This document shows positions 19,641 through 58,511 of a stretch of DNA of 64,000 nucleotides, piece after piece; within the stretch, counting starts at the first letter, position 1, and each line of letters opens with the position of its first letter. The notes beneath the pieces were generated by a model that did not search any database, was not told where the DNA came from, and saw only the letters and a list, made by a program, of their open reading frames with translations. Both the position numbers and the translations under genes were made by a program. Origin of the DNA: Algibacter miyuki (GTDB lineage: Bacteria > Bacteroidota > Bacteroidia > Flavobacteriales > Flavobacteriaceae); assembly GCF_030409805.1 (NCBI RefSeq), contig NZ_JAUFQP010000007.1:1054001-1118000 (forward strand). Reading direction: 5' to 3'.

Positions 19641-20657
19641 TTATTCTAGTAATTTCAGCTTTGCTAAATCGTGGAAATAGAAATTCTTTTCATCATTCAT
19701 AGAAACAAAAACACCATTAGGGAATTTATCGCCTAAAGCCACTGTTGTAACGTCGCAACCGTCGGTTTCCAAAGTGCCTAAATTTAACTCCTTAATAAAA
19801 GCGTTTGTTTTTAAATCGAAAATGCAAAACGTATGTGCTTGTTGGTTAGATACTATTAAAAACGATTTGTTGGCGTATTTTGCAATAGCAATACCTTCAA
19901 TATCGCGTTCAAAATATTCACCACCAAAGGTGTGAATTTCTTTATCGCCTTGCGATGGCTCAGCGTGGTATTGACGTATGCCATGCATCTCATCAGAATA
20001 ATATACCATACCAGTTTCATTATCTACGGCAATAGCTTCTATTTCTTTTTTGCCGCTAAAAGCTCCAAAAGTTCTAACAAGTTTTGAGTGTACCCCCAAA
20101 CTATCCGAAGTCAATAAATATTGGTGTAAATAACCTTCTTTTGGTCCGTTTTTACGTCCAACAATAGCGTAGATATCATTTGTTTTTGGCGACTTATAAA
20201 GTGCGATACCCATTGGGGCGTCGAATTCTAGCTCTGTTTCATTTTCAAAAACAGGAAAACCGCCGTTATCCAAAGGTTTCATATCTGGCACCGAATACAA
20301 ACGGATGGTTTTGTTTTCTCTTTCGGTAAAAGCAATAATATCGGATTGGGTAGAATCGTTGAGTTTAAAACCATATTCTAAATCGATGTTGTTAGGTCGT
20401 TTTATGTTTCTAATGGTTTTATTTTCTATAATTTTTCCGTCTAAATCAAAAGCATAAATAGCACCATTGGTTTCTTTATCTGTCCCGAAAATGATGCTTT
20501 TTGATGCATCGTTTGGGTTTACCCAAATGGCAGGGTCATCAGTGTCGTGAAGTGTGTTTTCTGTAATAACATCTGGTGCAATTTCAGGAAATTGAGTTCC
20601 GCATGCGGTCAATAATGTTAAGCTTCCTAATAATATTATTTTATTGTACTTCATCAT
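19641..20657 (-). CDS. Beta-propeller phytase, lipoprotein
   Basis: A 338-residue protein with a lipoprotein signal (LLTAC, Cys at about 19). The N-terminal TLHDTDDPAIWVNPNDASKS (about 36-55) is the phytase signature that supplies calcium ligands, followed by GTDKETNGAIYAFDLDGK and later EGIAIAKY/EAIAVDNETG blades. The family hydrolyses inositol hexakisphosphate at a six-bladed propeller. It follows the TonB receptor gene by two bases, and that operon carries candidate Pho boxes, so the pair is probably an outer-membrane phytate-phosphorus uptake unit. Confidence 0.92.
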   Translation of the reverse strand: MMKYNKIILLGSLTLLTACGTQFPEIAPDVITENTLHDTDDPAIWVNPNDASKSIIFGTDKETNGAIYAFDLDGKIIENKTIRNIKRPNNIDLEYGFKLNDSTQSDIIAFTERENKTIRLYSVPDMKPLDNGGFPVFENETELEFDAPMGIALYKSPKTNDIYAIVGRKNGPKEGYLHQYLLTSDSLGVHSKLVRTFGAFSGKKEIEAIAVDNETGMVYYSDEMHGIRQYHAEPSQGDKEIHTFGGEYFERDIEGIAIAKYANKSFLIVSNQQAHTFCIFDLKTNAFIKELNLGTLETDGCDVTTVALGDKFPNGVFVSMNDEKNFYFHDLAKLKLLE

Positions 20658-20659
20658 GT

Positions 20660-23503
20660 TTAATTTCTTTTAAATAGATCGTATTTTAAACCAAAAGTTA
20701 AGCGTTGTCCGTAAGATTCAGATTGCATAGTTCTCGATTTTTTACCTTGATAATAACGTAAGGCCTGGTCTGTTATGTTGTTTAAACTTGCGTATATACT
20801 TAAGTTTTTATTGAACTTATAACCAGCGTTAAAATCTAAGAAAAATTGTTTGTCGTAATAACGGTCTTCAAAAGCGCGACCACCAATTTCATCTACATAA
20901 GCACCAGAGAAATTACCCGAAAGTCTAGCGTTAAACTTTTTATCAGCATAAGCTAACGATGCGTTAAACATATTTGGAGCTGTATTTGGTAAATCTAAAT
21001 CTGTACGTTCTTCGCCATCTTCATTTCTAATACCATCTGCACTAGATGATAAATGTGTGTAATTTAAGTAAACACTTAAGTTTCTTGCAAAACTTGGTAA
21101 GAAATCTAGTTGACGTTGGAACGCAAATTCAAATCCTAAAATAGAAGCTTGATCTCCATTGAAAGGTTGGTAAACTTCGTATTCGTTTTCATCTTCATAT
21201 TGAAAAACATAAATGAAATCTTGAATATCTTTATAGAAAACACCTCCGGAAATAATACCAACAGATTTAAAATAATGCTCTGCCATAACATCGAAATTCA
21301 TAGATGTTGTTGGATCTAGTTCGGAGTTTCCTAACTTAATTTCCTCATCTTCATTATTTATTTCTCTAAAAGGAACCAAATCAATATAGTTTGGTCTAGC
21401 CAGTGTGTTGGTCCAAGCAAAACGTAAAACGGTTTGTTTTGATAAGTCGTATTTTAAATGTAAACCCGGTAAAATGTTAGTGTATGTACTTTTGTCTGTA
21501 ACACTATTGCTGCCCGTGAAATCACCTTCTTCATCAAAAATAATTTCGTTACCTGTACTATTAATACTGGTGTGCTCTAATCTAATACCAAGTAAAATAT
21601 TTAATTTATCGGTTACTTGTTGGCTTGTCATGGCGTAACCAGAAAATACATTTTCGTCGACATCAAAATTTGCTGTTAGGTATTCTTCTGGTAAATCTTC
21701 AGCTTCAAATAAAGCAGCGTCGTTTAGGTTTAATTGTCCAAGAAATTCGGTAGTTGCAAAAGATCCAATAGCGTATTGACTACCAGCTAAGAAATCTGGA
21801 TTACTATAATTTCTAGTTGGAATACCTCCCAATAGATCGAAACTAGAATCTTCTGGGCTGTATTCGATAAAATTGTTGTTTCTGTTTTTGTTTTTTAATC
21901 TTGTTTTTATACCAAATTTTAAAGTTCCGTTGTGATCATCAAAGATGTTTAATGGTAATTTGAAATTAGCTAAAACGTTAAAGTCTTTTTCCTCGGTGTA
22001 TTGATTTTCTTCGGTTAACTCACCAAATTCAAAACTATTATAAAGTGCATCAGTATTATCAACAGGAGTGAATAAAGGATTTCTAGAGTCGTTGTTGTAA
22101 TTAATGGTGTATTCACTTTCGTATTCTAAATAACGCTCGTTTAAACGCTCTTCAGAAGCTTTAGAATAAGCCGCCATCCAGTCTATTTGTAGTTTGTTAA
22201 CTAAGTGCGCACCACCAATGTTATAGTTTTGCATGCGTTGATCTTCTAGTCTGGTATTTTGATTTCTATCATTGTCAATACCGCCTTTAGTTTGGCGTTT
22301 TGCTTCTACTGGAAACATGCTTAAATTACCATTAGAGTCTACCGTAAAATCGCCTGGCGCAATATCTTCGCCATCTAGAATTTCATGTTCTAATCTAAAT
22401 CTATTTTCGCGATCGTCTCTCCAGTTGTAAATGGATTTAAAGTAGATGCTGTTATTTTCATTTAATTTATAATCTAAATTGGCCGAAAAACTACGTCGTG
22501 TACGTTGTACAATATAATCTCTAATTTCAAAGGTTTTTGCATAAGGATTAACGGCTACTTCTTCTAAATTATCTTCGTCATCATTAGCGTTATATTCAAA
22601 TTCATCTTCCCATTCGGCTTCAAAATTATGACTTCCAAAATCGTTATCATTTACCGATGCTGAGAGCATCCATCCAAATTTTCCGTTATTACTTCTATTT
22701 CCTATTAAAAAGGAACCATTAAGTATTTTTTTATTTGAGATGTAATTAACACCCGATCCGGCAGTGGCTGAAACACGGAAACCTTCTGGAGATGTTCTTG
22801 TTACCAAGTTTACCGAGCCACCTAAAGCATCGGCATCCATATCTGGAGTTACGGCTTTGCTTACTTCAATAAGCTGAATCATATCCGCAGGAATTAAATC
22901 CATTTGTACATTACGGTTATCGCCTTCGGCAGAGGGTATACGGCTACCATTTAAAGTTACAGAGTTTAGTTGTGGCGCTAAACCACGAACAATAATGTTT
23001 CTAGCTTCACCTTGGTCTACTTGCATGGTGATACCGGGTATACGTTTAATAGCGTCACCGATGTTGGCATCTGGAAATTTACCAATTTGATCTGTAGATA
23101 CTACGTTGGTAATGTTTTGTTTGTTTTTTTGTGCATTAAGTGCTTTTGCTTGGCCACTAACATAACTTGTAATGGTTACGCCATCTAACTCTAATGCTTT
23201 TGGAGTAATATTAAAGTTTAATGTGGAAGTTGCTCCGGCTTTTACTAAAACGTCTGCGCTGCTATCATCATAACCTATGTAAGTTACTGTTATGGTTTGG
23301 TTACCTGCAGGAACGCCAATAAGTGTAAAATTTCCGTTAACATCGGATATTGTTCCCTTTTTTAAAGATTTAATTATAATATTACTAAAAGGGACTTTCA
23401 GTCCGTCGCTATCTGTAATAACTCCTTGTATATTACCTTCTTGCGATATGCCTAACAGCGAAAGTAGTAGCGTTATTATTAAAATGGCATTGTTTTTTCT
23501 CAT
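20660..23503 (-). CDS. TonB-dependent receptor of the phytase operon
   Basis: A 947-residue outer-membrane transporter. It has a signal peptide (1-20), a carboxypeptidase-regulatory-like domain (about 23-110, VITDSDGLKVPFSN...VTYIGYDD), a plug (about 125-240, with IPGITMQVDQGEARNIIVRG), and a 22-strand barrel ending LTFGLKYDLFKRN, whose final aromatic region suits BAM recognition. No SusD partner is adjacent; the phytase lipoprotein occupies that position two bases downstream. The likely cargo is phytate, inositol phosphates or another phosphorylated compound, inferred from context and candidate Pho boxes upstream. Confidence 0.9.
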   Translation of the reverse strand: MRKNNAILIITLLLSLLGISQEGNIQGVITDSDGLKVPFSNIIIKSLKKGTISDVNGNFTLIGVPAGNQTITVTYIGYDDSSADVLVKAGATSTLNFNITPKALELDGVTITSYVSGQAKALNAQKNKQNITNVVSTDQIGKFPDANIGDAIKRIPGITMQVDQGEARNIIVRGLAPQLNSVTLNGSRIPSAEGDNRNVQMDLIPADMIQLIEVSKAVTPDMDADALGGSVNLVTRTSPEGFRVSATAGSGVNYISNKKILNGSFLIGNRSNNGKFGWMLSASVNDNDFGSHNFEAEWEDEFEYNANDDEDNLEEVAVNPYAKTFEIRDYIVQRTRRSFSANLDYKLNENNSIYFKSIYNWRDDRENRFRLEHEILDGEDIAPGDFTVDSNGNLSMFPVEAKRQTKGGIDNDRNQNTRLEDQRMQNYNIGGAHLVNKLQIDWMAAYSKASEERLNERYLEYESEYTINYNNDSRNPLFTPVDNTDALYNSFEFGELTEENQYTEEKDFNVLANFKLPLNIFDDHNGTLKFGIKTRLKNKNRNNNFIEYSPEDSSFDLLGGIPTRNYSNPDFLAGSQYAIGSFATTEFLGQLNLNDAALFEAEDLPEEYLTANFDVDENVFSGYAMTSQQVTDKLNILLGIRLEHTSINSTGNEIIFDEEGDFTGSNSVTDKSTYTNILPGLHLKYDLSKQTVLRFAWTNTLARPNYIDLVPFREINNEDEEIKLGNSELDPTTSMNFDVMAEHYFKSVGIISGGVFYKDIQDFIYVFQYEDENEYEVYQPFNGDQASILGFEFAFQRQLDFLPSFARNLSVYLNYTHLSSSADGIRNEDGEERTDLDLPNTAPNMFNASLAYADKKFNARLSGNFSGAYVDEIGGRAFEDRYYDKQFFLDFNAGYKFNKNLSIYASLNNITDQALRYYQGKKSRTMQSESYGQRLTFGLKYDLFKRN

Positions 23504-23577
23504 GATTATGGTTCGTTATTTTGTCTTGACGAAATAATAAAAATGAGAATGAAATTAAGTTATCGTTTTTTAAAATT

Positions 23578-23599
23578 AACGTTAACTTAATTGAGGAAA
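23578..23599 (+). promoter_or_regulatory. Candidate Pho box, receptor/phytase operon (weak copy)
   Basis: AACGTTAACTT is followed in phase by AATTGAGGAAA. The first 11-mer fits the AA(T/G)GTTA motif well, the second only partly. It lies 75-96 bases upstream of the receptor start. Confidence 0.4.
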
Positions 23600-23606
23600 G
23601 CCTAGG

Positions 23607-23628
23607 TTTTTAACCTGTAGTTAACATT
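23607..23628 (-). promoter_or_regulatory. Candidate Pho box, receptor/phytase operon
   Basis: On the minus strand AATGTTAACTA is followed directly by CAGGTTAAAAA, with GTTA repeated at exactly 11 bases. Same orientation as the receptor gene. Confidence 0.5.
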
Positions 23629-23665
23629 AAAAACATATTGATAAAACATCAGTTTTTACCAACAC

Positions 23666-47782: not shown

Positions 47783-50119
47783 TTATTCTTCTTCTGTACT
47801 AGAAATTGTTGCAGGTTCCACAGAGGAATCGTGCGCATTATGATATTCTTCTAATAAACTCATAGTGGCTTTAAGCAAATCTTTCGTTTCTAATAACACC
47901 CCAAAGTATAAGGTGGTGTTCTTCGGACTCGATTCTTCAGTACGTGTTCTTTCAACTTGTTTCTGAATTTTTTCAGATAACAACTTAAACACATCGTCTT
48001 TTCTGCTTAAAATTTGTCCTATTTGCTCAAAAGAATGCGAATCGAAAGCCGTTTTCATATCATGAAACAATCCTTCAACCGATGCATCAACCTCTTTCAA
48101 CTCTTTAATTTGGTTGAATTTCAGTTTCTTATGGTTGTTGTTAATATGCTTATAACTCACCTTAGAAATATATTCTAAAGATTGTGCCATATCCTGTAAG
48201 TAGCCTAAAACATTAATGTAGAAATTACTTGCACCAACACTAGATTCGTCTAAGTTTTTAATAAAATAGAAAATGTTGTTACGTAAATCGTCAACTTCAA
48301 TAGATAATTTATTAACCTGTTTTTGGTTCTTTTTAAGCGATACTAAATCTTGTTTAGCGAGACCGTTTATAGCGTTTGTATAAATTTTGTTTCCACGTTT
48401 TACTACGTTAGCAATATTGCCAGCACTTTCGTGAATAACACCTTGTACAGAACTACTTTCTGCCTTTATCAAGCTATCTTCTGCTCTAACTTCTTTCGAT
48501 TTTTTATTATGAACTACCGAACTTCTAATTAATAAACCAAAGGCTGCAACCAATAATATAGGGAACATTACCGTAATGTTTAGGTTTAATAAATAGGCGA
48601 CTAAAGCTGCTGCTGAAAACGCACTAAAGGCTGTAAAAAACCATCCACCAATAACGTTTATTACACCCGCTACACGGTACACAGCACTTTCTGCACCCCA
48701 AGCTCTATCGGCAAGTGATGATCCCATGGCTACCATAAAAGTAACGTATGTTGTAGATAGTGGTAATTTGTATGAGGTTGCTATAGAAATTAAAACTGCA
48801 GCAATCATTAAGTTTAATGCTGCTCGCACTAAATCGAAAGCAGGTAATTCTACTGTTTTATTTTTTGATAAGGTAATCACTGGAACTTCAAACTGTTTAT
48901 CAATTTTAGCTTGCCAAGAATTTGGTAGTAAATATGATGTTGTTTGAGAAAGTAAAACCGCTACACGCACAAAACCACGTGATAAAAAGTTAGGTTGAAA
49001 ACGTTCTTTAGTTTCACTTTGGCTAGCAAGGTCTAACGATGTTTTTACAACGTTTTTCGCTTTGGTAGAAAACCATAACGTTAGTACCATAATCATACCT
49101 GCAGCAAAAAGCAACCAGTTGTTGGTTGGTACTTTTTCGGCTAAAATAGTCATCGGGAATTCGTAAGCAGGAACTCCAGAGGCCGACCATGCTAAAAAGG
49201 CATTGTAAGCCGCAACAGGTACACCAATAAAGTTTACTAAATCGTTACCAGCAAAAGCAAGTGCTAAGGCAAACGTACCTACTAAAATAATAAGTTTGTA
49301 GATGTTTATTTTGGCAAGCGAAATAAGAGCTAATGAAAGTAAAGACCATATTACAGAACTTACTAAAATAATACCAAGTACTTGAGTTTCTAAAAAGTGA
49401 GCCATAGTACCACCACCCAAAATATCGTAAGATTCGTTGGCGTAAGAGGTGCCTTTTAATCCTTTCATAAAGATGAAATAGGTAATGGCTGTAATGGCAA
49501 AACCACCAAATAGCGCACCAACCCATGGGGCTTTATTTTCAAAATTATAAGATAATAGTAAACGGGCAACCCATTGTACTAAAGCACCAATGGAGAATGC
49601 GACGACCACCGAGAGCAGAATTCCGAATATAATTTGAGACGCTTTTGAAGTGTTGATATAGTTAATAACATCGCCAAAATCGCCACCATCGTGTCCAATT
49701 TTTATTAAGGCAATGGCAACTGCAGCCCCCAATAATTCGAATACAATGGAAACTGTAGTTGATGTTGGCATCCCAACGGAGTTAAAGAAATCGAGCAGTA
49801 ATATGTCCGTAATCATTACGGCCATAAAGATGATCATGATTTCGTTAAACATAAACTCACTTGGGTTAAAAATACCCTTACGAGCAACTTCCATCATACC
49901 GCTAGAAAAAACAGCTCCAACCGCAACACCTACACTGGCCACAATCATAATGGTTTTAAAAGAAATGGCTTTAGAGCCAATAGCCGAGTTTAAAAAGTTT
50001 ACGGCATCGTTACTAACGCCCACCACCAAATCTGCAATTGCAAGAATGGCTAAGGCGATAATCATATACAAATAGATATTATCCATAGTGTCTGGTTGAA
50101 ATAAGGTTGCAAATATCAT
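47783..50119 (-). CDS. Pit-family inorganic phosphate transporter with C-terminal PhoU-like helical domain
   Basis: A 778-residue inner-membrane transporter. Both PD001131-like Pit repeats are visible: GVSNDAVNFLNSAIGSKAI near residue 33 and GNDLVNFIGVPVAAYNA near 290. About twelve membrane helices precede residue 560. The last about 210 residues are soluble and helical (LSIEVDDLRNNIFYFIKNLDESS and so on), resembling the PhoU/DUF47 proteins usually encoded beside Pit; here the two are fused, as in many Bacteroidota. It starts 39 bases after the phosphate porin. An alternative start lies 11 codons in. Confidence 0.92.
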   Translation of the reverse strand: MIFATLFQPDTMDNIYLYMIIALAILAIADLVVGVSNDAVNFLNSAIGSKAISFKTIMIVASVGVAVGAVFSSGMMEVARKGIFNPSEFMFNEIMIIFMAVMITDILLLDFFNSVGMPTSTTVSIVFELLGAAVAIALIKIGHDGGDFGDVINYINTSKASQIIFGILLSVVVAFSIGALVQWVARLLLSYNFENKAPWVGALFGGFAITAITYFIFMKGLKGTSYANESYDILGGGTMAHFLETQVLGIILVSSVIWSLLSLALISLAKINIYKLIILVGTFALALAFAGNDLVNFIGVPVAAYNAFLAWSASGVPAYEFPMTILAEKVPTNNWLLFAAGMIMVLTLWFSTKAKNVVKTSLDLASQSETKERFQPNFLSRGFVRVAVLLSQTTSYLLPNSWQAKIDKQFEVPVITLSKNKTVELPAFDLVRAALNLMIAAVLISIATSYKLPLSTTYVTFMVAMGSSLADRAWGAESAVYRVAGVINVIGGWFFTAFSAFSAAALVAYLLNLNITVMFPILLVAAFGLLIRSSVVHNKKSKEVRAEDSLIKAESSSVQGVIHESAGNIANVVKRGNKIYTNAINGLAKQDLVSLKKNQKQVNKLSIEVDDLRNNIFYFIKNLDESSVGASNFYINVLGYLQDMAQSLEYISKVSYKHINNNHKKLKFNQIKELKEVDASVEGLFHDMKTAFDSHSFEQIGQILSRKDDVFKLLSEKIQKQVERTRTEESSPKNTTLYFGVLLETKDLLKATMSLLEEYHNAHDSSVEPATISSTEEE

Positions 50120-50158
50120 GACTATATAATGGTGTTGTGTTATGTTAATGTTATTTCT

Positions 50159-51349
50159 TTAAAAGTGTATATCGCACTGTAAACGATACATGATTTTATT
50201 GTTTCCGCCTGCCACATCTAAGTAGCTTAAATCGGTTTGAATTTTTAATTTATGTCCAACAATATATTTTGACAAACCAATGGTGTATTGGTTTTCGGCG
50301 TTTTCGTTGGTGATGTTTTTATCTAAAGTAATATTGGTGTAACGTCCAGAAACTTCGTAGTTGCTTTTAAGTAAATACCCGGTTTGAAGGTTTAAACCAC
50401 GGCCTACTTGCACCACATCGCCAGTTAAAGTGCCATCAGAATTCATGGCAATTGGGTTATCGGCATCTCTATCGGCGTATTCAGCCATAAAAGAAAATCC
50501 TTGATACTTAAACATGGCATCTATAAAAAGTGTGCTAATGTTGGTTTCAAAAAAACCGGTATCAGTTTCCATATAGCTTCCCATATTGCTGCGTGTTTTT
50601 ACAGCATTATTGTTATAATCGTATACTACGCCTAGTGCTAGTTTTGGGGTCGATTCTCGTTTTAAGTCGGCACCTTTATAATCGCCATCACTGGTAAATT
50701 CACCGAAAGGGTAAAAATCTAATCGGCCAGTATATTGATGTCCGCCTAAGTTTCCAGTAGTTACATTTCGGCCTTCACCTTGTGCTATTGAAAAAGTTTC
50801 TTTAACAATAAAAGAGTTGGTTAGGTTAAAATGATGTTTTAATTGCATTCCGAAATCACGATCGATGTTAAAACGGCTATTAAGTAAAGAGCGATCTACT
50901 TGTTGCAAGTTTGCTGAAGATATAATACGTTCGCGGTTGCCAGGTAATTTTGTTTGGCCTACCCAAAGTTCAAAATTCTTATAAAAATTCCACATTAAAA
51001 ATGCATCTAAAATATAACGTGGCGCGTTCCCTGTAAATTCCGAAGCACCCGATTGGTCTCTGTTAGATAAGCCCAATTCAATTTTATATTTTAATTTCGG
51101 GCTGTAAGCAAAACCATTAAATTTCAATCGAGAGCGTCTAATTAGGAAGTTGGCGTCGCTTTTTTCGCCATCTTCCCAAACGGAAGAGCCAAGAAGTTGA
51201 ACTCGTAATCCTACTTTCATGGTCCAAGAGCTGTCTTTTCCAACCACGTTGAAAATACCGTTTCCGAATTTTCCGGTTGTAATCTCTTGCGCTTGCGCGG
51301 AAGCCATAAACCAGAAAACTACTCCAAACAGGATAAGTTTAAGTTTCAT
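50159..51349 (-). CDS. Phosphate-selective porin (OprO/OprP family)
   Basis: A 396-residue outer-membrane barrel with a signal peptide (1-20, SAQAQ). Alternating strands run throughout (SWTMKVGLRVQLLGSSVWED near 40, RRSRLKFNGFAYSPKLKYKIELGL near 68-91) and the protein ends MYRLQCDIHF, with a terminal Phe as the assembly signal. This is the OprO/OprP porin family, which in Pseudomonas takes up phosphate or pyrophosphate. With Pit 39 bases downstream it makes a two-membrane phosphate import operon, preceded by candidate Pho boxes. Confidence 0.9.
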   Translation of the reverse strand: MKLKLILFGVVFWFMASAQAQEITTGKFGNGIFNVVGKDSSWTMKVGLRVQLLGSSVWEDGEKSDANFLIRRSRLKFNGFAYSPKLKYKIELGLSNRDQSGASEFTGNAPRYILDAFLMWNFYKNFELWVGQTKLPGNRERIISSANLQQVDRSLLNSRFNIDRDFGMQLKHHFNLTNSFIVKETFSIAQGEGRNVTTGNLGGHQYTGRLDFYPFGEFTSDGDYKGADLKRESTPKLALGVVYDYNNNAVKTRSNMGSYMETDTGFFETNISTLFIDAMFKYQGFSFMAEYADRDADNPIAMNSDGTLTGDVVQVGRGLNLQTGYLLKSNYEVSGRYTNITLDKNITNENAENQYTIGLSKYIVGHKLKIQTDLSYLDVAGGNNKIMYRLQCDIHF

Positions 51350-51389
51350 TATTCAGTATTAGTTTTTGTCGCTGCAAAGAACTAAAAAG

Positions 51390-51422
51390 AATGTTAACTT
51401 AATGTTTCCTAATGATTAAGTT
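51390..51422 (+). promoter_or_regulatory. Candidate Pho box of the porin/Pit operon
   Basis: On the plus strand AATGTTAACTT is followed in phase by AATGTTTCCTA and a weaker ATGATTAAGTT. Two perfect AATGTT units lie 11 bases apart. It is 41-73 bases upstream of the porin start. Confidence 0.6.
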
Positions 51423-51432
51423 TGAAACAAAA

Positions 51433-51458
51433 AAGGCTACCTAAAAATAGGTAGCCTT
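51433..51458 (-). terminator. Orphan terminator hairpin between divergent genes
   Basis: AAGGCTACCTA pairs with TAGGTAGCCTT over AAAA. On the minus strand it is followed by TTTTTTG, the normal rho-independent form. It could end a short intergenic RNA, or stop read-through from the receptor operon at 52-56 kb. Confidence 0.65.
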
Positions 51459-51647
51459 ATTAGAATTCACTATAATGTAGTCGACAAAAACTAATAGATT
51501 ATATGAAAAACTAATCTTGTTGTCCAAGGATATTACAAATATCTTGGATTAAATTGACTTAAATGTAACCACAATATTAAGTAATTATTAATATTGTGGT
51601 GAATTTAATAAAATGTAAAATACTGATTAATAATTATTTATACTTCC

Positions 51648-51680
51648 AATGTTAATTTAATGTTACGTAAATGTTGTGTA
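51648..51680 (+). promoter_or_regulatory. Candidate Pho box of the MORN protein gene (three perfect units)
   Basis: AATGTT starts at 51648, 51659 and 51670, exactly 11 bases apart, in AATGTTAATTT, AATGTTACGTA and AATGTTGTGTA. The last unit includes a TTG at 51674-51676 that stands 20 bases before a TATCTTCG -7-like element at 51697-51704, so the box overlaps the -33 region as class-II activators do. Confidence 0.65.
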
Positions 51681-51737
51681 ATTGTAAAATATTTTCTATC
51701 TTCGTAATGGAAATAATAATCTCAAACCCAACTTACA

Positions 51738-52052
51738 ATGAAAAATATATTAATTATCGCATTAGCTTTGTTTACATCTTTGACTTTTGCTCAAAATGAT
51801 AAAAAGCTAACTTTAAATAAAGAAACAAATCAAATTGATGCTGTTTACTATCATGAAAATGGTAAAGTTAGCCAAACAGGAACTTTTACTGCTGATGGGA
51901 AACTAGACGGAAAATGGATTAGTTTTGATGAAGCTGGTGAAAAAACAACGGTTGCTTTTTATAAAGATGGTAAAAAAGTTGGAAAATGGATTCACTGGAT
52001 CGAAGGAAAGAAAAAAGTAGTAAGTTATGAAAATAACGTAGCTACCTTATAA
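51738..52052 (+). CDS. Small secreted MORN-repeat protein (YwqK-like)
   Basis: A 104-residue protein with a signal peptide (about 1-18, LTFAQ). Three MORN-like strands follow: YYHENGKVSQTGTFTADGKLDGKWISFDEAG, then VAFYKDGKKVGKWIHWIEG. This matches the short YwqK-type proteins common in Flavobacteriia, some of which carry the misleading name nicotinic acid mononucleotide adenyltransferase; no such enzyme motif is present. The role is unknown. The three-unit candidate Pho box in front of it suggests phosphate-starvation expression. A terminator follows the stop. Confidence 0.85.
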   Translation: MKNILIIALALFTSLTFAQNDKKLTLNKETNQIDAVYYHENGKVSQTGTFTADGKLDGKWISFDEAGEKTTVAFYKDGKKVGKWIHWIEGKKKVVSYENNVATL

Positions 52053-52073
52053 ATAGCATACTATTTTAACATA

Positions 52074-52110
52074 AAAAGAACGCCTAAAACAATATGTTTT
52101 AGGCGTTTTA
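52074..52110. terminator. Bidirectional terminator between MORN and receptor genes
   Basis: AACGCCTAAAAC pairs with GTTTTAGGCGTT around five bases, between convergent genes. Confidence 0.88.
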
Positions 52111-52130
52111 CTTTTATAAAAAGAAATCTT

Positions 52131-54959
52131 TTAGAACTTATATGCGTATCCAATTGAAAACTCGGTACCAGGTTCTCTTAAAGAGAATATTTGATCTTGG
52201 GCTTCATACGATTGGAAAACACTTTCTCTGTCGCTGCCTAAGATGTTTGATACTTTAATATCTATAGATGATTTTTTAGACGCTCCAAAAGCTTTGTTTA
52301 ACGTAAAGTTTAAGCTCTGGAATGGTTTTGTAAATACATCTGGAACACCACCTAAACCAACAACCTCTAAGGTTTTACCTTGCACATTAAAGAATAGACC
52401 GGTTTGTAGACCAAGTTCTTTATTAGCGTAGTTTAAGCTCGTGTTTACTAAAAACGGTGCTTGCCCTTGTAATTGTCTTTTTTCGTCTATGGTTTGGCCA
52501 TCTCTTGCGTTGGCAACTCTAGAGTTGTATTCTTCCTCAGACATGGTTAACTCCGATTCGGTAACCGATACGTTTAAAGCAAACTTTAAATCGTTTAAAT
52601 CTTCAGCAATAAAACCTAAGCTTTTTCTAAACTCTACCTCGGCACCATAAACCTTGGCGCTACCTAAGTTACCAATAGTTAATTGGGTTGGGGCAGAAGC
52701 AAAGAATGATTTTTCTAAAGGATCTTTAAAATCTTTAAAGAAAGCACTTACCGCAAACATTTGTCCGCCAGCTCCGAAGTTTTCAAATCTTAAATCGAAG
52801 TTGTTTACATAGGTTGGTTTCAAATCGATGTTACCAATAAATAAACGGTCTGTAATAGGATCGAAAATTTGAGATAAAGAAGCTTCTTTAAAAGAAGGTC
52901 TTGCTGTTGTTTTATAATATGATGTACGAATGTTAGATTTTTCGGTAGCGGCATAAATAAAGTTGGCCGACGGAAATAAATCGTAAACATCAATCACTTT
53001 GAATCTATTATATAAATCTGCACCATCTTGCCCAGTGTAATATGATGAAAAGGCTTCAGCTCTTAAACCTAAAATAGTTTTTAGTTTTTCAGAAATATTA
53101 AATTCATTAGAAATGTAAGTTGAAGAAATATGTTGCTCACCTTCATAAGCATCATTAGGGTTAAAAAGATCACCAGAAATTAAATATGTACCGTTTGAGT
53201 TATCTCTACTCCAAAGGTTTTCTGTTGCTAAAATATTATCAGGATTTCCGTTTAAAACTGATGTTCCGTTATTGTCAAACGTCCAATCGTCTACACTAAA
53301 ATCTCTAAATTTATACGTATGGCCACCACCAAATTTCACTTTTGCAGGTTTTCCGAATAATTCGTATTTTTTACTCAAATCGACTTTACCAGCCCAGTTT
53401 TCTTCTTGTAAAAAACGCCAAATTCTAATAGGGAACGTTGCTGCGGAAGCACTAATAAAATAATCGCCAGTTTGAGATTCTTGAAGCGGTGTTACTCTAT
53501 GATCTAAGTCGTGAACTTTAGATATTGTTGGAGATAATTTCCATTCGAAGTTCCAGTCATTTTCTGCACCAAAAGAGTGCGTACCATTTAATAATACGTT
53601 GGTTACGGAGCGTTCGGTATAAGTAATAGCGTCTTTTGTTAATGGCTCATATCCAGAGCCAGAACCAGAACCACCTTGTGCTACGGTTTGACTAAAGAAA
53701 CCACCAGCAGATTCTCCATTTTGAATATGAAGTACATTAAAACGGTATTTTGAGTTTTGTGTTTTAAAAGTAAGTCCAACAAGTCCGTTTACAAGAACAT
53801 TATTAATACCTTCACGACCATTAGAAATTCTATCGGCAACTAACTCATTATTCGACGTATCGTTAGCATCTATAGAGTATGCGCCATCACGTCTGTTTTC
53901 GTAAAATGTTGTACTGTTTTTGTATGAAAAAGAAGCTAAGTAACCAAACTTGTTATATTCACCTACTTCAAATTGATCTCCAATAGTAAAACCGAAATCG
54001 AAGTTAGGTTTGCTTGTTTCTTCTTTAGCTCTTAATTGGCTATCGAAACGGCTTGTAAGGGTTGTTAATAAGCCACGGTTATCAAATGTACCAGGAATGT
54101 TTTGGTAACGGTGAATTGGGCGGCTTCTAGAATTATCATCATATCCAAAAAAGTCCGTGCTACTAGAATTTCCTATTAAAAAATTATCTTTACCATGCAT
54201 GCTTGGGTTAAAAGCTGCACCAAGCGAAATAGACGCTTCAAATTTCGTTGGAAAATCTTTAGTTACAATATCTACAACACCACCGGTAAAATCGGCAGGG
54301 TATTCGGCAGCAGCAGATTTTACTACAATAATATTATCGATAATATTAGTTGGAAAAATATCCATTTGAATTGTGTTTCTGTCAGGATCTAAACCGGGAA
54401 TATCAACCCCGTTCAAAGTTGTTTTTGTGTAACGATCTCCAAGACCACGTACATAAACATATTTTCCTCCCTCTACAGAAACACCAGGAACACTTTTTAC
54501 AGCACTTGCGATGTTACTTGCTCCGCTAGATTTTATGCTTTGCGCCGATAAACCATCTAAAAGGGTAACCGATTTTTTCTGAAGATTTAAAACCGCATTT
54601 TCAGTATTGCGTTTGGCGCTTGTAGTAATTACAATTTCGTCTAAAGAATTCGATTTTAAAATAACATCTAAATAGAAAACTTGGTTTGCTTTAATAACAA
54701 TATCACTAATTTCCTTCGATTCGTATCCAACAAAAGAGAATATTAGGGTATAATTTCCGGCATCTAAATTTAGTTGGTATTTACCATCAAAATCTGTTGT
54801 TGTGCCGGTTGTAGTTCCTTTTACTAAAATGTTGGCAAAAGCCATAGCTTCATTATTGTATTCGCCATCTAGCACATTTCCAGTAACAGTTCCTGTTTGT
54901 GCGCTTAAACTTAATATTGAAGTTAAAAAAAGCGTAAGAAGGATATAAATATTTTTCAT
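52131..54959 (-). CDS. TonB-dependent receptor of the phosphorus island
   Basis: A 942-residue outer-membrane transporter; the start at 54959 (MKNIYILLTLFL) begins a clear signal peptide. A carboxypeptidase-regulatory-like domain spans about 22-105 (VTGNVLDGEYNNEAMAFANILVKG), the plug about 125-235 (SNIASAVKSVPGVSVEGGKYVYVRGLGDRYTKTTLNGVDIPG) and the barrel the rest, ending GYAYKF with terminal Phe. It follows the beta-helix lipoprotein gene by 82 bases, an order like SusC/D with a different lipoprotein. Candidate Pho boxes lie before the lipoprotein gene. The cargo is presumably a phosphorus compound, by context. Confidence 0.9.
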   Translation of the reverse strand: MKNIYILLTLFLTSILSLSAQTGTVTGNVLDGEYNNEAMAFANILVKGTTTGTTTDFDGKYQLNLDAGNYTLIFSFVGYESKEISDIVIKANQVFYLDVILKSNSLDEIVITTSAKRNTENAVLNLQKKSVTLLDGLSAQSIKSSGASNIASAVKSVPGVSVEGGKYVYVRGLGDRYTKTTLNGVDIPGLDPDRNTIQMDIFPTNIIDNIIVVKSAAAEYPADFTGGVVDIVTKDFPTKFEASISLGAAFNPSMHGKDNFLIGNSSSTDFFGYDDNSRSRPIHRYQNIPGTFDNRGLLTTLTSRFDSQLRAKEETSKPNFDFGFTIGDQFEVGEYNKFGYLASFSYKNSTTFYENRRDGAYSIDANDTSNNELVADRISNGREGINNVLVNGLVGLTFKTQNSKYRFNVLHIQNGESAGGFFSQTVAQGGSGSGSGYEPLTKDAITYTERSVTNVLLNGTHSFGAENDWNFEWKLSPTISKVHDLDHRVTPLQESQTGDYFISASAATFPIRIWRFLQEENWAGKVDLSKKYELFGKPAKVKFGGGHTYKFRDFSVDDWTFDNNGTSVLNGNPDNILATENLWSRDNSNGTYLISGDLFNPNDAYEGEQHISSTYISNEFNISEKLKTILGLRAEAFSSYYTGQDGADLYNRFKVIDVYDLFPSANFIYAATEKSNIRTSYYKTTARPSFKEASLSQIFDPITDRLFIGNIDLKPTYVNNFDLRFENFGAGGQMFAVSAFFKDFKDPLEKSFFASAPTQLTIGNLGSAKVYGAEVEFRKSLGFIAEDLNDLKFALNVSVTESELTMSEEEYNSRVANARDGQTIDEKRQLQGQAPFLVNTSLNYANKELGLQTGLFFNVQGKTLEVVGLGGVPDVFTKPFQSLNFTLNKAFGASKKSSIDIKVSNILGSDRESVFQSYEAQDQIFSLREPGTEFSIGYAYKF

Positions 54960-54973
54960 AAATATAATTTGAA

Positions 54974-55005
54974 AACTACTGCTCACCCGAAAGTAAGCAG
55001 TAGTT
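54974..55005 (-). terminator. Intercistronic hairpin between lipoprotein and receptor genes
   Basis: AACTACTGCT pairs with AGCAGTAGTT over 12 bases, between two genes that look like one operon. On the minus strand only a short TTTT follows, so it may be an attenuator or RNA processing site that sets the ratio of the two proteins. Confidence 0.6.
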
Positions 55006-55041
55006 GTATATTTTTTTAATATAAAGTGAAGCGGTTATTTT

Positions 55042-56310
55042 TTATAATGATAAACCACCTTCGATTACAGCGTAAGTCCAAGTAAACTCAGAGATTGTTG
55101 CTCCAACAGTTTGTGCACCTTTAGCAACTGCAGTAGCTTCCGAGCCGAAACCAGTAACTGTTACAGTTTCTGCTTTGTTAGCAAAAACATCTGTTACCGC
55201 GGTAACACCTGTTGGTAATACAATTTCCCAAGCAGAGAATGTTAATTTAGCGTCGTTATAGTTTGTGGCTACACCGTCGTTATCTAATTCTACATCAGAA
55301 TCGGCTTTAAATCCGTAAGCATAAACATTGTTAGTTGCTCCAGTAGCACCACTTCTGTAATCGGCATATTCACCGTTTGCAGTAACACCGTTTCCAACAA
55401 TAGTTGCGTTTTGTAAAGTAAAAGATCCTGTAGCAGTTCCTTCTGGTCCGTCAATTTCAAAAGCATGATCAGATGCGTCTCCTAAAACAACAACCGCATT
55501 GTCAATAGTTCCAGAGTAAGCTTGATCAATATCTAAAGCATCATCACCTTGTCCCCAAACTAATACGTTTTTTACGTTTACTGTACCACCGAAAAACTCG
55601 ATACCATCATCAACATTTGCGATAACTTCAATGTTTTCAATTACAGTTCCAGTACCAACACCACCAAGTGTTAAACCGTTAATTTCGTTTCCTTCACCAA
55701 TTAAAGCACCACCGTGACGGATAGAAATGTATTTAAGTACTCCAGAGTTATCAGCAGCATCTGTTCCACCGTATAATCCAAAAGTATCATCAGCAGGAAT
55801 ACCTTCAATTTGAACTTCAACTAAATCACCTTTAAAAGAACAAGGTGCGTTACCTAAAACAATTAGGCCACCCCAAAGTCCTCTGTTAGATTCATCTAAA
55901 TTAGAACCTGCATTTTCGCCTGCATCAATATCATCACTTGTAGAAGTAAAAATAATTGGGCTTGTAGAAGTACCTTCAGCATTAATTTTAGAACCTCTTG
56001 CAATAATTAAAGCAGATGCTAAAGAACCTGTTCCTGGCTTTCCTTTAATAATAGTTCCAGCTTCAATAGTTAAAGTAGCTCCATTATCAACAACTACTTT
56101 TTGGTTTAATTCATATATTTTGTCATTCGTCCAAGTGGTATTTTCAGTAATTGCTCCAGTTACTGCAACCGTTTCCGTAGTACTTGTGCCATTGCCACCA
56201 TCTTGGATAATTGTAATTTCTTCTATTATAATAGGTGTATCATCATCTTTAAGACAACCAGTAAAAACTAGTGTAGATACCATTAACAGAGGTAAAATTA
56301 TTTTTTTCAT
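55042..56310 (-). CDS. Surface lipoprotein with right-handed beta-helix, receptor partner
   Basis: A 422-residue lipoprotein (FTGC, Cys19) with an acidic, low-complexity linker and then beta-helix coils (GATLTIEAGTIIKGKPGTG near 96; LWGGLIVLGNAPCSFKG near 165; DGIEFFGGTVNVKNVLVWGQGDDALDIDQ near 260-288). The rungs are typical of the Bacteroidota T9SS-unrelated lipoproteins often mislabelled multidrug transporter; there are no transmembrane helices. It occupies the SusD place upstream of the TonB receptor, so it probably binds the cargo at the cell surface. The candidate Pho boxes just upstream are the strongest in the window. Confidence 0.85.
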   Translation of the reverse strand: MKKIILPLLMVSTLVFTGCLKDDDTPIIIEEITIIQDGGNGTSTTETVAVTGAITENTTWTNDKIYELNQKVVVDNGATLTIEAGTIIKGKPGTGSLASALIIARGSKINAEGTSTSPIIFTSTSDDIDAGENAGSNLDESNRGLWGGLIVLGNAPCSFKGDLVEVQIEGIPADDTFGLYGGTDAADNSGVLKYISIRHGGALIGEGNEINGLTLGGVGTGTVIENIEVIANVDDGIEFFGGTVNVKNVLVWGQGDDALDIDQAYSGTIDNAVVVLGDASDHAFEIDGPEGTATGSFTLQNATIVGNGVTANGEYADYRSGATGATNNVYAYGFKADSDVELDNDGVATNYNDAKLTFSAWEIVLPTGVTAVTDVFANKAETVTVTGFGSEATAVAKGAQTVGATISEFTWTYAVIEGGLSL

Positions 56311-56409
56311 GAGTTTTTTAATTTTGATATATTTTGTTTATTTCTTTCGGCAAAGAAACTACCGTAATCTTAAAATGGTGTTAATTCAAGATTAACGAAC
56401 GGTAATAAA

Positions 56410-56442
56410 AGTGTTAGTAAAAGGTTACCTTAATGTTGCTTG
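56410..56442 (+). promoter_or_regulatory. Candidate Pho box of the lipoprotein/receptor operon, three units
   Basis: AGTGTTAGTAA, AAGGTTACCTT and AATGTTGCTTG follow each other without gap, GTT repeated every 11 bases. About 100-130 bases upstream of the lipoprotein start. Confidence 0.55.
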
Positions 56443-56452
56443 ATTTTACAAG

Positions 56453-56474
56453 AGGGTTACATTAAGTTAACATT
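56453..56474 (-). promoter_or_regulatory. Candidate Pho box, second, opposite orientation
   Basis: On the minus strand AATGTTAACTT is followed directly by AATGTAACCCT, 11-bp phased. Confidence 0.55.
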
Positions 56475-56550
56475 AGAAAATGGCTTAATGCTATAGTTGA
56501 TTTCGAGGAAATGTGGTAATCTATTATTTGGGAACATAATATAAAGACAT

Positions 56551-56589
56551 AAAAAAAACAGCCTTCTAATTAAGAAGACTGTTTTTTTT
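56551..56589. terminator. Terminator of the regulatory-like protein gene
   Basis: AAAAAACAG(C)CTTCT with AGAAG(A)CTGTTTTTT, one mismatch, T-tracts on both sides, after the stop at 56617. Confidence 0.8.
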
Positions 56590-56616
56590 ATAATGAATGA
56601 AATATGTTATTATCCT

Positions 56617-57006
56617 TTAATTACTTGCTGTAACCGATGATGTTTCTGCGGTTTTACTATTTGCGAAAGCGGCCATTAAATCGTCTAAAGATAAAGTGTT
56701 GGCGCCTAAGGTTTCATTTATTGTAGTTATCCTGTTATCAACAACATTAACAGCTATCGTTTTAGATTCGTAACCCACAAAACTAAGTGATACATTGTAC
56801 GTTCCGGCTTGTAAATGTTCAAATTTAAAGCTTCCGTTTTTGTCTGTTACCGTTTTAGCGCCCGTTTCTTTAATAGTTATAGTTGCTAGTTCTAGTGGAG
56901 CTTGGTTCGATTCTAAATCTAGAATATTTCCTGAGATAGATACGTTATCTTGAGCAAAGCTTGTAGCCGATATTAAAAAAGCGAATATTAAAAAAAGATG
57001 TTTCAT
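56617..57006 (-). CDS. Stand-alone carboxypeptidase-regulatory-like secreted protein
   Basis: A 129-residue protein with a signal peptide (1-18, ATSFAQ). The remainder is one carboxypeptidase-regulatory-like (CarboxypepD_reg) beta-sandwich (about 22-100: VSISGNILDLESNQAPLELATITIKETG, then YNVSLSFVGYESKTIAVNVVDN), then a short tail ASNSK-like. The same domain opens TonB receptors, including the one next door, but no plug or barrel follows and the stop is not obviously a truncation: the tail LSLDDLMAAFANSKTAETSS is unlike receptor sequence. It may be an accessory to a receptor's N-terminal domain. Candidate Pho boxes precede it. Confidence 0.8.
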   Translation of the reverse strand: MKHLFLIFAFLISATSFAQDNVSISGNILDLESNQAPLELATITIKETGAKTVTDKNGSFKFEHLQAGTYNVSLSFVGYESKTIAVNVVDNRITTINETLGANTLSLDDLMAAFANSKTAETSSVTASN

Positions 57007-57047
57007 GGTAATACTAAATAAATTTTGCTCTGCAAAATAAAGGCATT

Positions 57048-57069
57048 AAGGTCACTAGAATGTTATGTA
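57048..57069 (+). promoter_or_regulatory. Candidate Pho box of the regulatory-like protein gene
   Basis: AAGGTCACTAG then AATGTTATGTA, 11-bp phased, 42-63 bases from the gene at 57006. Confidence 0.5.
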
Positions 57070-57091
57070 ACAATTAAACAACTGTGATGAT

Positions 57092-57113
57092 AAGGTTACC
57101 CTAATGTTAAGCG
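57092..57113 (+). promoter_or_regulatory. Candidate Pho box between the regulatory-like and dGTPase genes
   Basis: AAGGTTACCCT then AATGTTAAGCG, 11-bp phased. It could serve either the minus-strand gene or dgt (ATG at 57171). Confidence 0.5.
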
Positions 57114-57170
57114 AATTTTTATTTATTTTTTATTAGGAAATGTTATCTTGCCAGCATATAAATTTTTACC

Positions 57171-58511
57171 ATGAACTGGGAACAACTACTATCCTTAAAA
57201 CGCTTTGGCGACACCAATAAACGTATTAGAAAAGAACAAGACGAAACCCGTTTAGGTTTTGAAGTAGATTACGATCGTGTAATTTTTTCATCAGAATTTA
57301 GAAGTTTACAAGATAAAACTCAGGTTATTCCGTTATCCGAAACCGATTTTGTTCACACACGCCTCACGCACAGTTTAGAGGTTAGTGTGGTTGGGCGCTC
57401 ACTTGGGCGTTTGGTGGGTAAAAAACTATTAGAAAAACACCCACATTTGCAAAGTTCATTAGGCTATCAAGCCAACGATTTTGGTGCTATTGTTGCCGCA
57501 GCAGCTTTGGCTCACGATATCGGGAACCCACCTTTCGGGCATTCTGGGGAAAAAGCCATTGGTGAATTTTTTATCACCGGTGCTGGTAAAAGTTTCAAAA
57601 ATCAATTGACTGATAAAGAATATCAAGATCTTTGCGATTTTGAAGGTAATGCTAACGGATTTAAAATTTTAACCGAAGATCGCGATGGGCGTTTGGGCGG
57701 ACTCCGTTTAAGCTACGCCACACTTGGGGCGTTTATGAAATACCCCAAAGAATCGTTACCTAAAAAGCCAACAGCACATATTGCAGATAAAAAATACGGA
57801 TTTTTCCAAAGTGAAAAAGAAGCTTTTCAAGATGTAGCCAACGAGCTTGGTTTATTAAAACGTAGCGAAACCGATTTAAGTTTTTCACGTCATCCCTTAG
57901 CTTTTCTAGTGGAAGCAGCCGATGATATTTGTTACACCATAATCGATTTTGAAGACGGTATCAACCTCGGACTTATTCAAGAAGAGTTTGCTCTAGAATA
58001 TCTTTCAAAAATCATTCGTCATAATATAAAGCCCGAAAATTATTACGCACTATCCTCCCGCGAAGACCGCATTGGTTATTTACGTGCATTATCTATTGGT
58101 AGTTTAATAAACGAAGCCGTAAACCTGTTTATGGAAAACGAAGAAGCTATATTAAACGGGAGTTTTGATTGTGCATTGCTTGATAAAAGCCAGTACGAAG
58201 CCCAAATAAACGACATCATTAAAATTAGTATCGATAACGTTTACCAATCCAGCGAGGTTATCGATAAAGAAATTGCAGGTTATGGCGTTATAAACACGCT
58301 GTTAAATACCTATGCAAGTGCTGTAAATAACGATTTCAATAACACGGCATCTAATTACGATAAACTCATACTAAAAAGCCTGCCTAAAGGTATCAATTCA
58401 ACAAGCACTAGTCTGTACAAACGTCTATCTAGTGTGTGTTACTACGTGTCGCTCCTCACCGATAGTAAAGCTATAAAAGAATATAAAAAGATAAAAGGTT
58501 TCGGGTTTTAG
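57171..58511 (+). CDS. dgt: Deoxyguanosinetriphosphate triphosphohydrolase (dGTPase)
   Basis: A 446-residue HD-domain enzyme splitting dGTP to deoxyguanosine and triphosphate. FSSEFRSLQDKTQVIPL (about 38-54) and FVHTRLTHSLEVSVVGRSLGRLVG (about 61-84) precede the metal-binding AHDIGNPPFGHSGEKAI (about 115-131); the later Asp is in FLVEAADDICYTIIDFEDG (about 246-264). This is the dGTPase type common in Bacteroidota. It starts 57 bases after the plus-oriented candidate Pho box at 57092, which may or may not control it. Triphosphate release would be a phosphorus link, a speculation. Confidence 0.93.
   Translation: MNWEQLLSLKRFGDTNKRIRKEQDETRLGFEVDYDRVIFSSEFRSLQDKTQVIPLSETDFVHTRLTHSLEVSVVGRSLGRLVGKKLLEKHPHLQSSLGYQANDFGAIVAAAALAHDIGNPPFGHSGEKAIGEFFITGAGKSFKNQLTDKEYQDLCDFEGNANGFKILTEDRDGRLGGLRLSYATLGAFMKYPKESLPKKPTAHIADKKYGFFQSEKEAFQDVANELGLLKRSETDLSFSRHPLAFLVEAADDICYTIIDFEDGINLGLIQEEFALEYLSKIIRHNIKPENYYALSSREDRIGYLRALSIGSLINEAVNLFMENEEAILNGSFDCALLDKSQYEAQINDIIKISIDNVYQSSEVIDKEIAGYGVINTLLNTYASAVNNDFNNTASNYDKLILKSLPKGINSTSTSLYKRLSSVCYYVSLLTDSKAIKEYKKIKGFGF

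Follow-up and report, generated by a model that had tools for sequence, protein, structure and literature searches.

The repeats that recur every 11 bp before several genes of the window, as we call the whole 64-kb stretch of DNA analysed here, are, with a probability of about 0.86, Pho boxes, i.e., predicted operators of a flavobacterial PhoB-like response regulator switching on phosphate genes. The phasing of the units, their conservation, their position on promoters and the set of genes behind them are observed, and the interpretation already offered in the preliminary description is supported by the phosphate-gene set found behind such predicted operators in relatives and by the adjacency of a gene for a PhoB-like regulator.

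Phased units on the promoters of the window

With at most one mismatch allowed, the two-unit word AAKGTTANNNNAAKGTTA has 9 matches in the 64 kb against 0.54 expected, and none of 100 shuffles reaches 9; all 9 are sites named in the preliminary description. Seven of the eight sites to which it had ascribed 11-bp repeats are covered in this way, but 23578-23599, with its poor second unit AATTGAG, fails the two-unit word test. If two mismatches are allowed, the excess becomes weak (14 matches versus 8.2, with 14 or more in 7 of 100 shuffles). The exact spacing ascribed to the site at 51390 does not hold in the register first given, where the third unit is 10 bp off, and is recovered only if the units are read as TTAAT/AAACA/TTAACA on the minus strand. 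Over the whole genome (4.94 Mb) the bare word has 427 matches, compared with 551 for the reversed word; since it is not enriched genome-wide, the evidence must come from arrays in promoter context, which alone are informative, a bare two-unit scan of the genome being uninformative. The 11-bp units themselves are real, but the TGTTA core once given for them has no fixed orientation, most promoters carrying TTAACA towards the gene and the MORN promoter TGTTA. The identities of the genes behind the sites were named correctly (Pit, porin, MORN, TonB receptor, lipoprotein, CarboxypepD_reg and phytase by Pfam, with MORN_2 weak and the lipoprotein without a match), and several units had been overlooked: at 56349-56396 three promoter-proximal ones before the lipoprotein gene, at 50136-50153 a box before the Pit gene, and a fourth unit of the MORN promoter.

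The most complete anatomy is that of the lipoprotein promoter. The gene itself (55042-56310, minus strand) has neither a Pfam match nor a relative found in a PDB search and is called FII by analogy with Fjoh_0546; of the 60 family genomes considered, the own one counted, 54 have a match to it, and it adjoins the gene of a TonB-dependent receptor (TBDT) in all 20 relatives fetched, the receptor being here the second gene of the operon (52131-54986, minus strand, assigned by domain search). Its proximal Pho box with units TTAATC/TTAACA/TTTAAG and the predicted -7 element TTTCTTTGC occupy 56349-56396 on the minus strand, and the distal units, given earlier as 56410-56442 and now extended to 56408-56442 on the same strand, are in phase with the proximal ones. 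A further two-unit box at 56453-56474, recognised by the two-unit word, was assigned to neither strand and reads AATGTTAACTTAATGTAA on the minus strand; in relatives devoid of the CarboxypepD_reg gene a similar box lies close to where the divergent HD gene starts. A terminator-like inverted repeat, noticed by eye, lies at 56551-56589 between the lipoprotein and CarboxypepD_reg genes. The order Pit - (porin) - MORN - TBDT - lipoprotein - (CarboxypepD_reg) - HD, which occupies 47783-58511 in the window, is largely syntenic in many of the 20 relatives.

For the alignment of this promoter 30 upstream regions were listed, 22 with a tblastn score >350 were kept, and two (L070 and L082) that did not fit the motif were left out, resulting in 20 promoters from 20 genera, the own one and those of 19 relatives, which were anchored on the predicted -7 element. 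TTAAC with no more than one mismatch stands at columns 31, 42, 64, 75 and 86 in 19, 17, 17, 19 and 16 of the 20 genomes, respectively, the first two columns corresponding to the distal units of the window, while the in-phase column 53 carries it in one of 20 only. All steps from unit to unit are multiples of 11, and columns between the units are largely decayed. In the 20 promoters the place of the -33 element is taken by the last unit, TTTACA, which begins 19 bp upstream of the TTTG within a gTTTcTTTGC element, the -7 elements being assigned by consensus.

The same phase, in the opposite orientation, is found at the promoter of the gene for a MORN_2-like secreted protein (51738-52052, plus strand; PF07661 below cut-off). 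Its four-unit array AATGTTA/AATGTTA/AATGTTG/ATTGTAA (51648-51688, plus strand, in TGTTA orientation) is defined by conservation and by the model R2 described below, and the predicted -7 element TATCTTCG (51697-51704, plus strand) by consensus, with TATATTTG as its counterpart in relatives. The box at 51648 had been placed over the -33 region; the units then listed (51648-51680) stop short of it, but the fourth unit TGTAAA (51683-51688) does reach it, ending 8 bp before TATCTTCG at 51697 and starting 18 bp before TTTG if the -7 element, recognised by consensus, is taken as the reference. Among 16 MORN promoters, the own one and those of 15 relatives, TGTTA recurs at 11-bp steps in 16, 16, 7 and 14 cases, and in the relatives the last unit again precedes a TATATTTG-like element.

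The remaining arrays were located by the word scan or by the model R1 trained on the lipoprotein promoters (see below). The outer-membrane porin gene (Porin_O_P, PF07396; 50159-51349, minus strand) is preceded by a Pho box with a predicted -7 element at 51373-51419 on the minus strand, which with 21.8 bits (E 0.001) is the second-best R1 match of the 4.94-Mb genome and stands outside the training set. The gene of the Pit-type phosphate permease (PF01384; 47783-50119, minus strand) has the two-unit box TAACATTAACATAACACA at 50136-50153 on the same strand. The CarboxypepD_reg-like protein gene (56617-57006, minus strand, domain search) carries a box with a predicted -7 element at 57031-57079 (minus strand, R1 12.5 bits) and a second array at 57081-57111 (minus strand, R1 10.5 bits). 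Before the TonB receptor and phytase genes, which follow each other in this order within 19641-23503 on the minus strand (PF02333 and TBDT domains), there is a proximal array at 23557-23590 (minus strand, R1 10.5 bits) and a distal box at 23608-23630, attributed to neither strand, with 11.5 bits of R1 on the plus strand and AATGTTAACTACAGGTTA on the minus one. A de novo motif search over the phytase-receptor upstreams alone gave a neighbouring stretch of coding sequence and a terminator but missed the box.

Promoter models and spacing across genomes

R1 was built from the sequences of the 20 lipoprotein promoters only and comprises 51 columns; in the own genome 150 of 6283 first-look candidates were scored with it. 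The lipoprotein promoter at 56349-56396, itself a member of the training set, is the best match of the genome with 36.6 bits. Altogether, there are 45 matches at E ≤10, and 4 of the 44 left after exclusion of the training gene fall within one 5.9-kb interval of the window (binomial p 2.7e-7, independence assumed). R2, trained on 13 MORN promoters with the window's own left out, returns the window MORN promoter as best in the genome (49.9 bits, the next match having 16.8 bits), and 3 of 15 other matches lie within the same interval (p 7.7e-7). Outside the window R1 gives no clear further target in the own genome: among the 30 loci listed 5 are in the window and 25 elsewhere, of which 14 fall within open frames of ≥110 aa; for the other 11, an ORF of at least 60 aa follows within 400 nt in five cases and is absent in six, and no phosphate gene was recognised among those five ORFs. 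A strong three-unit array (L147, 6080-6131; G000:C3:478.1 kb) was seen between genes of an AraC-type regulator and a 198-aa secreted protein, a locus not obviously related to phosphate.

To assess the spacing, a matrix of the single unit was derived from the lipoprotein promoters of the 19 genomes other than the own one and applied to 68 upstream regions of six gene families, mostly from the same relatives, and to 72 control upstreams. For two units spaced by 11 bp, 57 of 68 regions exceed the 95th percentile of controls, compared with totals of 2-16 at spacings 8-10 and 12-14; for three units the corresponding values are 50 of 68 at spacing 11 and 4-12 at the others. By family, the two-unit score at spacing 11 is above this level for 15 of 16 Pit, 6 of 9 porin, 16 of 16 MORN, 6 of 6 CarboxypepD_reg, 4 of 6 PhoB-like and 10 of 15 phytase-receptor upstreams, the latter reaching 13 of 15 with three units. 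The tested genes are somewhat above controls at other spacings too, as A+T-rich promoters would be. An earlier version of the test with 176 controls, some of which had been fetched because of matches, agrees with these results. For PhoX (PF05787), named in the preliminary description among possible targets, none of the 26 scorable upstreams is above the control 95th percentile; from the 30 loci of this set two had no usable start and two had <20 bp upstream, a fifth having only 30 bp, and the starts were chosen by rule; the majority of the set may lack orthology to the gene of F. johnsoniae.

R1 was also applied to a second genus (that of G127), where 54 of 61 genomes have a match at E ≤0.1. 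All 30 loci listed, from 30 genomes, are situated 15-37 nt before an ORF; by BLAST to the window proteins 27 of these ORFs are TonB receptors and one is porin-like, and the other two, each of 444 aa, have no Pfam match in their first 150 residues. Eight regions picked for good or several matches were opened and contain 17 matches in all: eight stand before a TonB receptor gene located beside a PhoB-like gene, one of them overlapping the script-assigned start, three before pstS, one before Porin_O_P, one before a lipoprotein gene, three before a gene for 443-457 aa, and one is off gene starts. The occurrence of boxes before pst genes, about which the preliminary description had asked, is thereby seen in three of the eight regions opened. 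In G336 the genes pstCAB-phoU come after pstS (pstC, another permease gene, that of an ATPase, and phoU), with PstS, PstC and PhoU passing curated cut-offs; two other boxed pstS genes pass PF12849 when their first 90 residues are scanned.

Further down the ranking of this genus, all 20 remaining places to E 0.0152 outside the existing loci were considered. They include five TonB receptors, two porin-like genes, three genes of DUF47/PhoU_div type (one Pfam-confirmed), one of the ArsC family and one for another secreted protein, while two places are inside long frames and six are without an ORF of at least 60 aa within 250 nt. The ArsC-family gene, of arsenate reductase type, lies behind the match L252 (G332:C122:5411-5450). 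Two matches, L249 and L259, were rejected: they have no ORF of this length within 250 nt and resemble an ordinary promoter that a leader peptide and a terminator follow. About 450 nt behind them are 84% identical in the two genomes, and a short leader-like ORF with a terminator-like stem is visible there by eye. In family f5, R1 has matches in 43 of 80 genomes, and among the 30 loci listed the two best stand before metallophosphoesterase-like genes, two others before TonB receptors and another before a Na/Pi-cotransporter-like gene, all named by eye or BLAST; most of the 30 have no phosphate gene behind them, and the loci not named here look like chance.

The candidate regulator and the alternatives

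The own genome encodes three Trans_reg_C regulators. One of them, at G000:C3:308404-309081 with the gene of a PhoR-like kinase adjacent, is likely the ortholog of the regulator found beside the boxes in relatives. In 5 of the 20 relatives the place of the divergent HD gene is taken by a PhoB-like regulator/kinase pair, so that the genes of regulator and lipoprotein diverge (66-83% identity), and in all eight opened regions of the second genus the regulator gene is beside the receptor (76-78% identity). The NCBIfam models that match the regulator best are two PhoB models, TIGR02154 with 218.1 bits (cut-off 296.2) and NF053854 with 208.3 bits (cut-off 270); as both remain below the curated cut-offs, the protein is named PhoB-like. 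Matches to it occur in 126 of 148 genomes of the order, paralogs included. Upstreams of regulator genes exceed the control 95th percentile in 17 of 30 cases, the own gene having 12.7 against 12.77.

We infer that the PhoB-like regulator binds the arrays, that binding activates transcription and that phosphate is the signal. Each 11-bp unit TTAACA(T)nnnn, which reads TGTTA on the opposite strand, would probably take up one monomer of the phosphorylated protein, bound head to tail with the next; two to five recognisable units stand in phase, the last of which would replace the -33 element 18-19 bp before TTTG of a TAnnTTTG-type -7 element. The bound regulator may then recruit RNA polymerase when phosphate is scarce and switch on genes for phosphate uptake through the outer and inner membranes (porin, Pit), phytate use, TonB receptors and lipoproteins.

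Regulators of the OmpR family generally use direct repeats of 10-11 bp, and the core of ArcA is TGTTAA; the arrays might serve another member of this family, for example an ArcA-like redox regulator, which we consider unlikely. The motif of Riemerella PhoP was found by its authors to resemble E. coli ArcA (PMC9603813), and two more Trans_reg_C regulators are present in G000. However, no array passes the thresholds used in the 10-kb regions round those two, the regulator adjoining the box is the PhoB-like one, and the gene set is phosphate-related, with pstS included in other genomes. It is very improbable that the repeats are just A+T-rich promoter sequence of one operon family, inherited without any specific regulator. 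The source genomes are indeed related, words like TTAAC are common in A+T-rich upstreams, and the tested genes do exceed controls at other spacings, although much less; inheritance of this kind is at odds with conservation confined to units 11 bp apart between decayed columns, with the recurrence of the unit at this spacing before different genes in both orientations, and with the ability of a model of one promoter to find others. That 27 of 30 listed loci of the second genus precede TonB receptors might suggest a mark of such genes in general, e.g., of iron or ECF-sigma control, rather than of phosphate genes. This is scarcely credible, as matches also precede pstS, Porin_O_P, DUF47/PhoU_div-type and ArsC-family genes, the Pit, porin and MORN genes of the window carry arrays, and a phosphate response is published for genes of F. 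johnsoniae that bear the same description (PMC8115612).

The Pho-box reading is preferred with several observations counted against it: the bare word is not enriched, none of the scorable PhoX upstreams passes, only part of the regulator upstreams pass, f5 loci are mostly chance-like, of the 20 next-ranked matches in the second genus six lack an ORF nearby and two are inside long frames, the PhoB models stay below cut-off, OprP is not induced in F. johnsoniae (PMC8115612), and the orientation of units relative to the gene is inconstant.

The Pit permease contributes a peculiarity of its own. Its C-terminal part (47786-48487, minus strand), a conserved tail of 234 residues with sub-threshold Pfam PhoU matches only, is predicted by AlphaFold from 15 sequences with pLDDT 88 to adopt a fold whose two best Foldseek matches in PDB are PhoU (TMq 0.69 and 0.73). 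Pfam searches of the own genome detected neither PhoU nor PstS, each of which was found in 13 of 14 control genomes. Because neither was detected there, a PhoU fold is attached to Pit and Pit is under the same box, the fusion can be read as a phosphate reporter: tentatively, and with somewhat less than even confidence, we propose a phosphate regulon devoid of the classical Pst-PhoU sensor, where the Pit-PhoU fusion may report phosphate entry to PhoR and the arrays may be readable both ways. This would make the Pit transporter itself a candidate phosphate sensor, signalling of the tail to PhoR being a guess. In S. aureus, PhoU-like proteins are tied to the Pit and NptA transporters (PMC13170248).

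Relation to known systems

The operator described here is very probably of a known kind, a flavobacterial variant of the Pho box of PhoB-like regulators. Its units are 11-nt direct repeats with about seven conserved and four variable positions; they are located before phosphate genes (those of the window, and pstS, porin and PhoU_div-type genes in the second genus), though not before PF05787 genes, and overlap the -35/-33 region of the lipoprotein and MORN promoters as placed by the consensus of their -7 elements. The Bacillus PhoP box, built of direct repeats of comparable length, has the consensus TT(A/C/T)ACA; provided this consensus is right, its core is nearly identical to the one found here, the phylum being different and the -7 element here being TAnnTTTG. 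A Pho box is defined as two 11-nt repeats with a consensus differing by species (PMC4415409). In E. coli the core is CTGTCAT/TGTCA instead of TTAACA/TGTTA, whereas here as many as five units are recognisable and either orientation occurs; the Streptomyces PhoP box GTTCACC also consists of direct repeats of similar length, in another phylum and on another promoter type (PMC4415409).

By description, the gene set is like that of the phosphate regulon of F. johnsoniae (phoBR, TBDT, lipoprotein FII, phytase with its TBDT), where depletion of phosphate induces PhoB, the TBDT Fjoh_0545, FII Fjoh_0546 and the phytase with its TBDT, but not OprP (Table 1) or PafA (PMC8115612); 'pho box', 'motif' and 'promoter' do not occur in the main text of that paper. 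For Bacteroides fragilis a mobility-shift test showed binding of PhoB to the promoter of pstC, the main text containing neither 'consensus' nor 'motif' (PMC3547664). Putative Pho boxes were predicted, likewise computationally, in plcP clusters of marine bacteria, the flavobacterium Dokdonia sp. MED134 included, with neither a box sequence nor word on whether any Bacteroidetes cluster has such a box in the accessible text (PMC4796936), and the accessible text of PMC8812569 has no 'pho box' or 'motif'. The main texts of the open-access literature searched yielded no description of an arrayed flavobacterial Pho box. The closest published counterpart comes from another member of Flavobacteriales, Riemerella anatipestifer. 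DAP-seq of its PhoP gave TTTAACA as the most conserved nucleotides, a core common to both systems; the regulator binds upstream of its own phoPR operon, said to be raised in phosphate starvation, and was framed in terms of virulence and aerotolerance (PMC9603813). Since this core is published, it is not new. 'Direct repeat' is absent from the main text of that study, nor does its accessible text mention an 11-bp phase, a promoter position or a set of phosphate genes (PMC9603813). Prior papers, as far as their accessible text goes, report the core bound by PhoP, a regulon or binding by PhoB, and no arrayed box. Novelty appears to lie in the phasing of the array, in its place on the promoter and in the genes behind it. 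Together they provide an operator anatomy (unit, phase and position on the TAnnTTTG promoter) for the response to phosphate in a group of bacteria that is a major one in soil and sea, by which flavobacterial Pho regulons become predictable from sequence.
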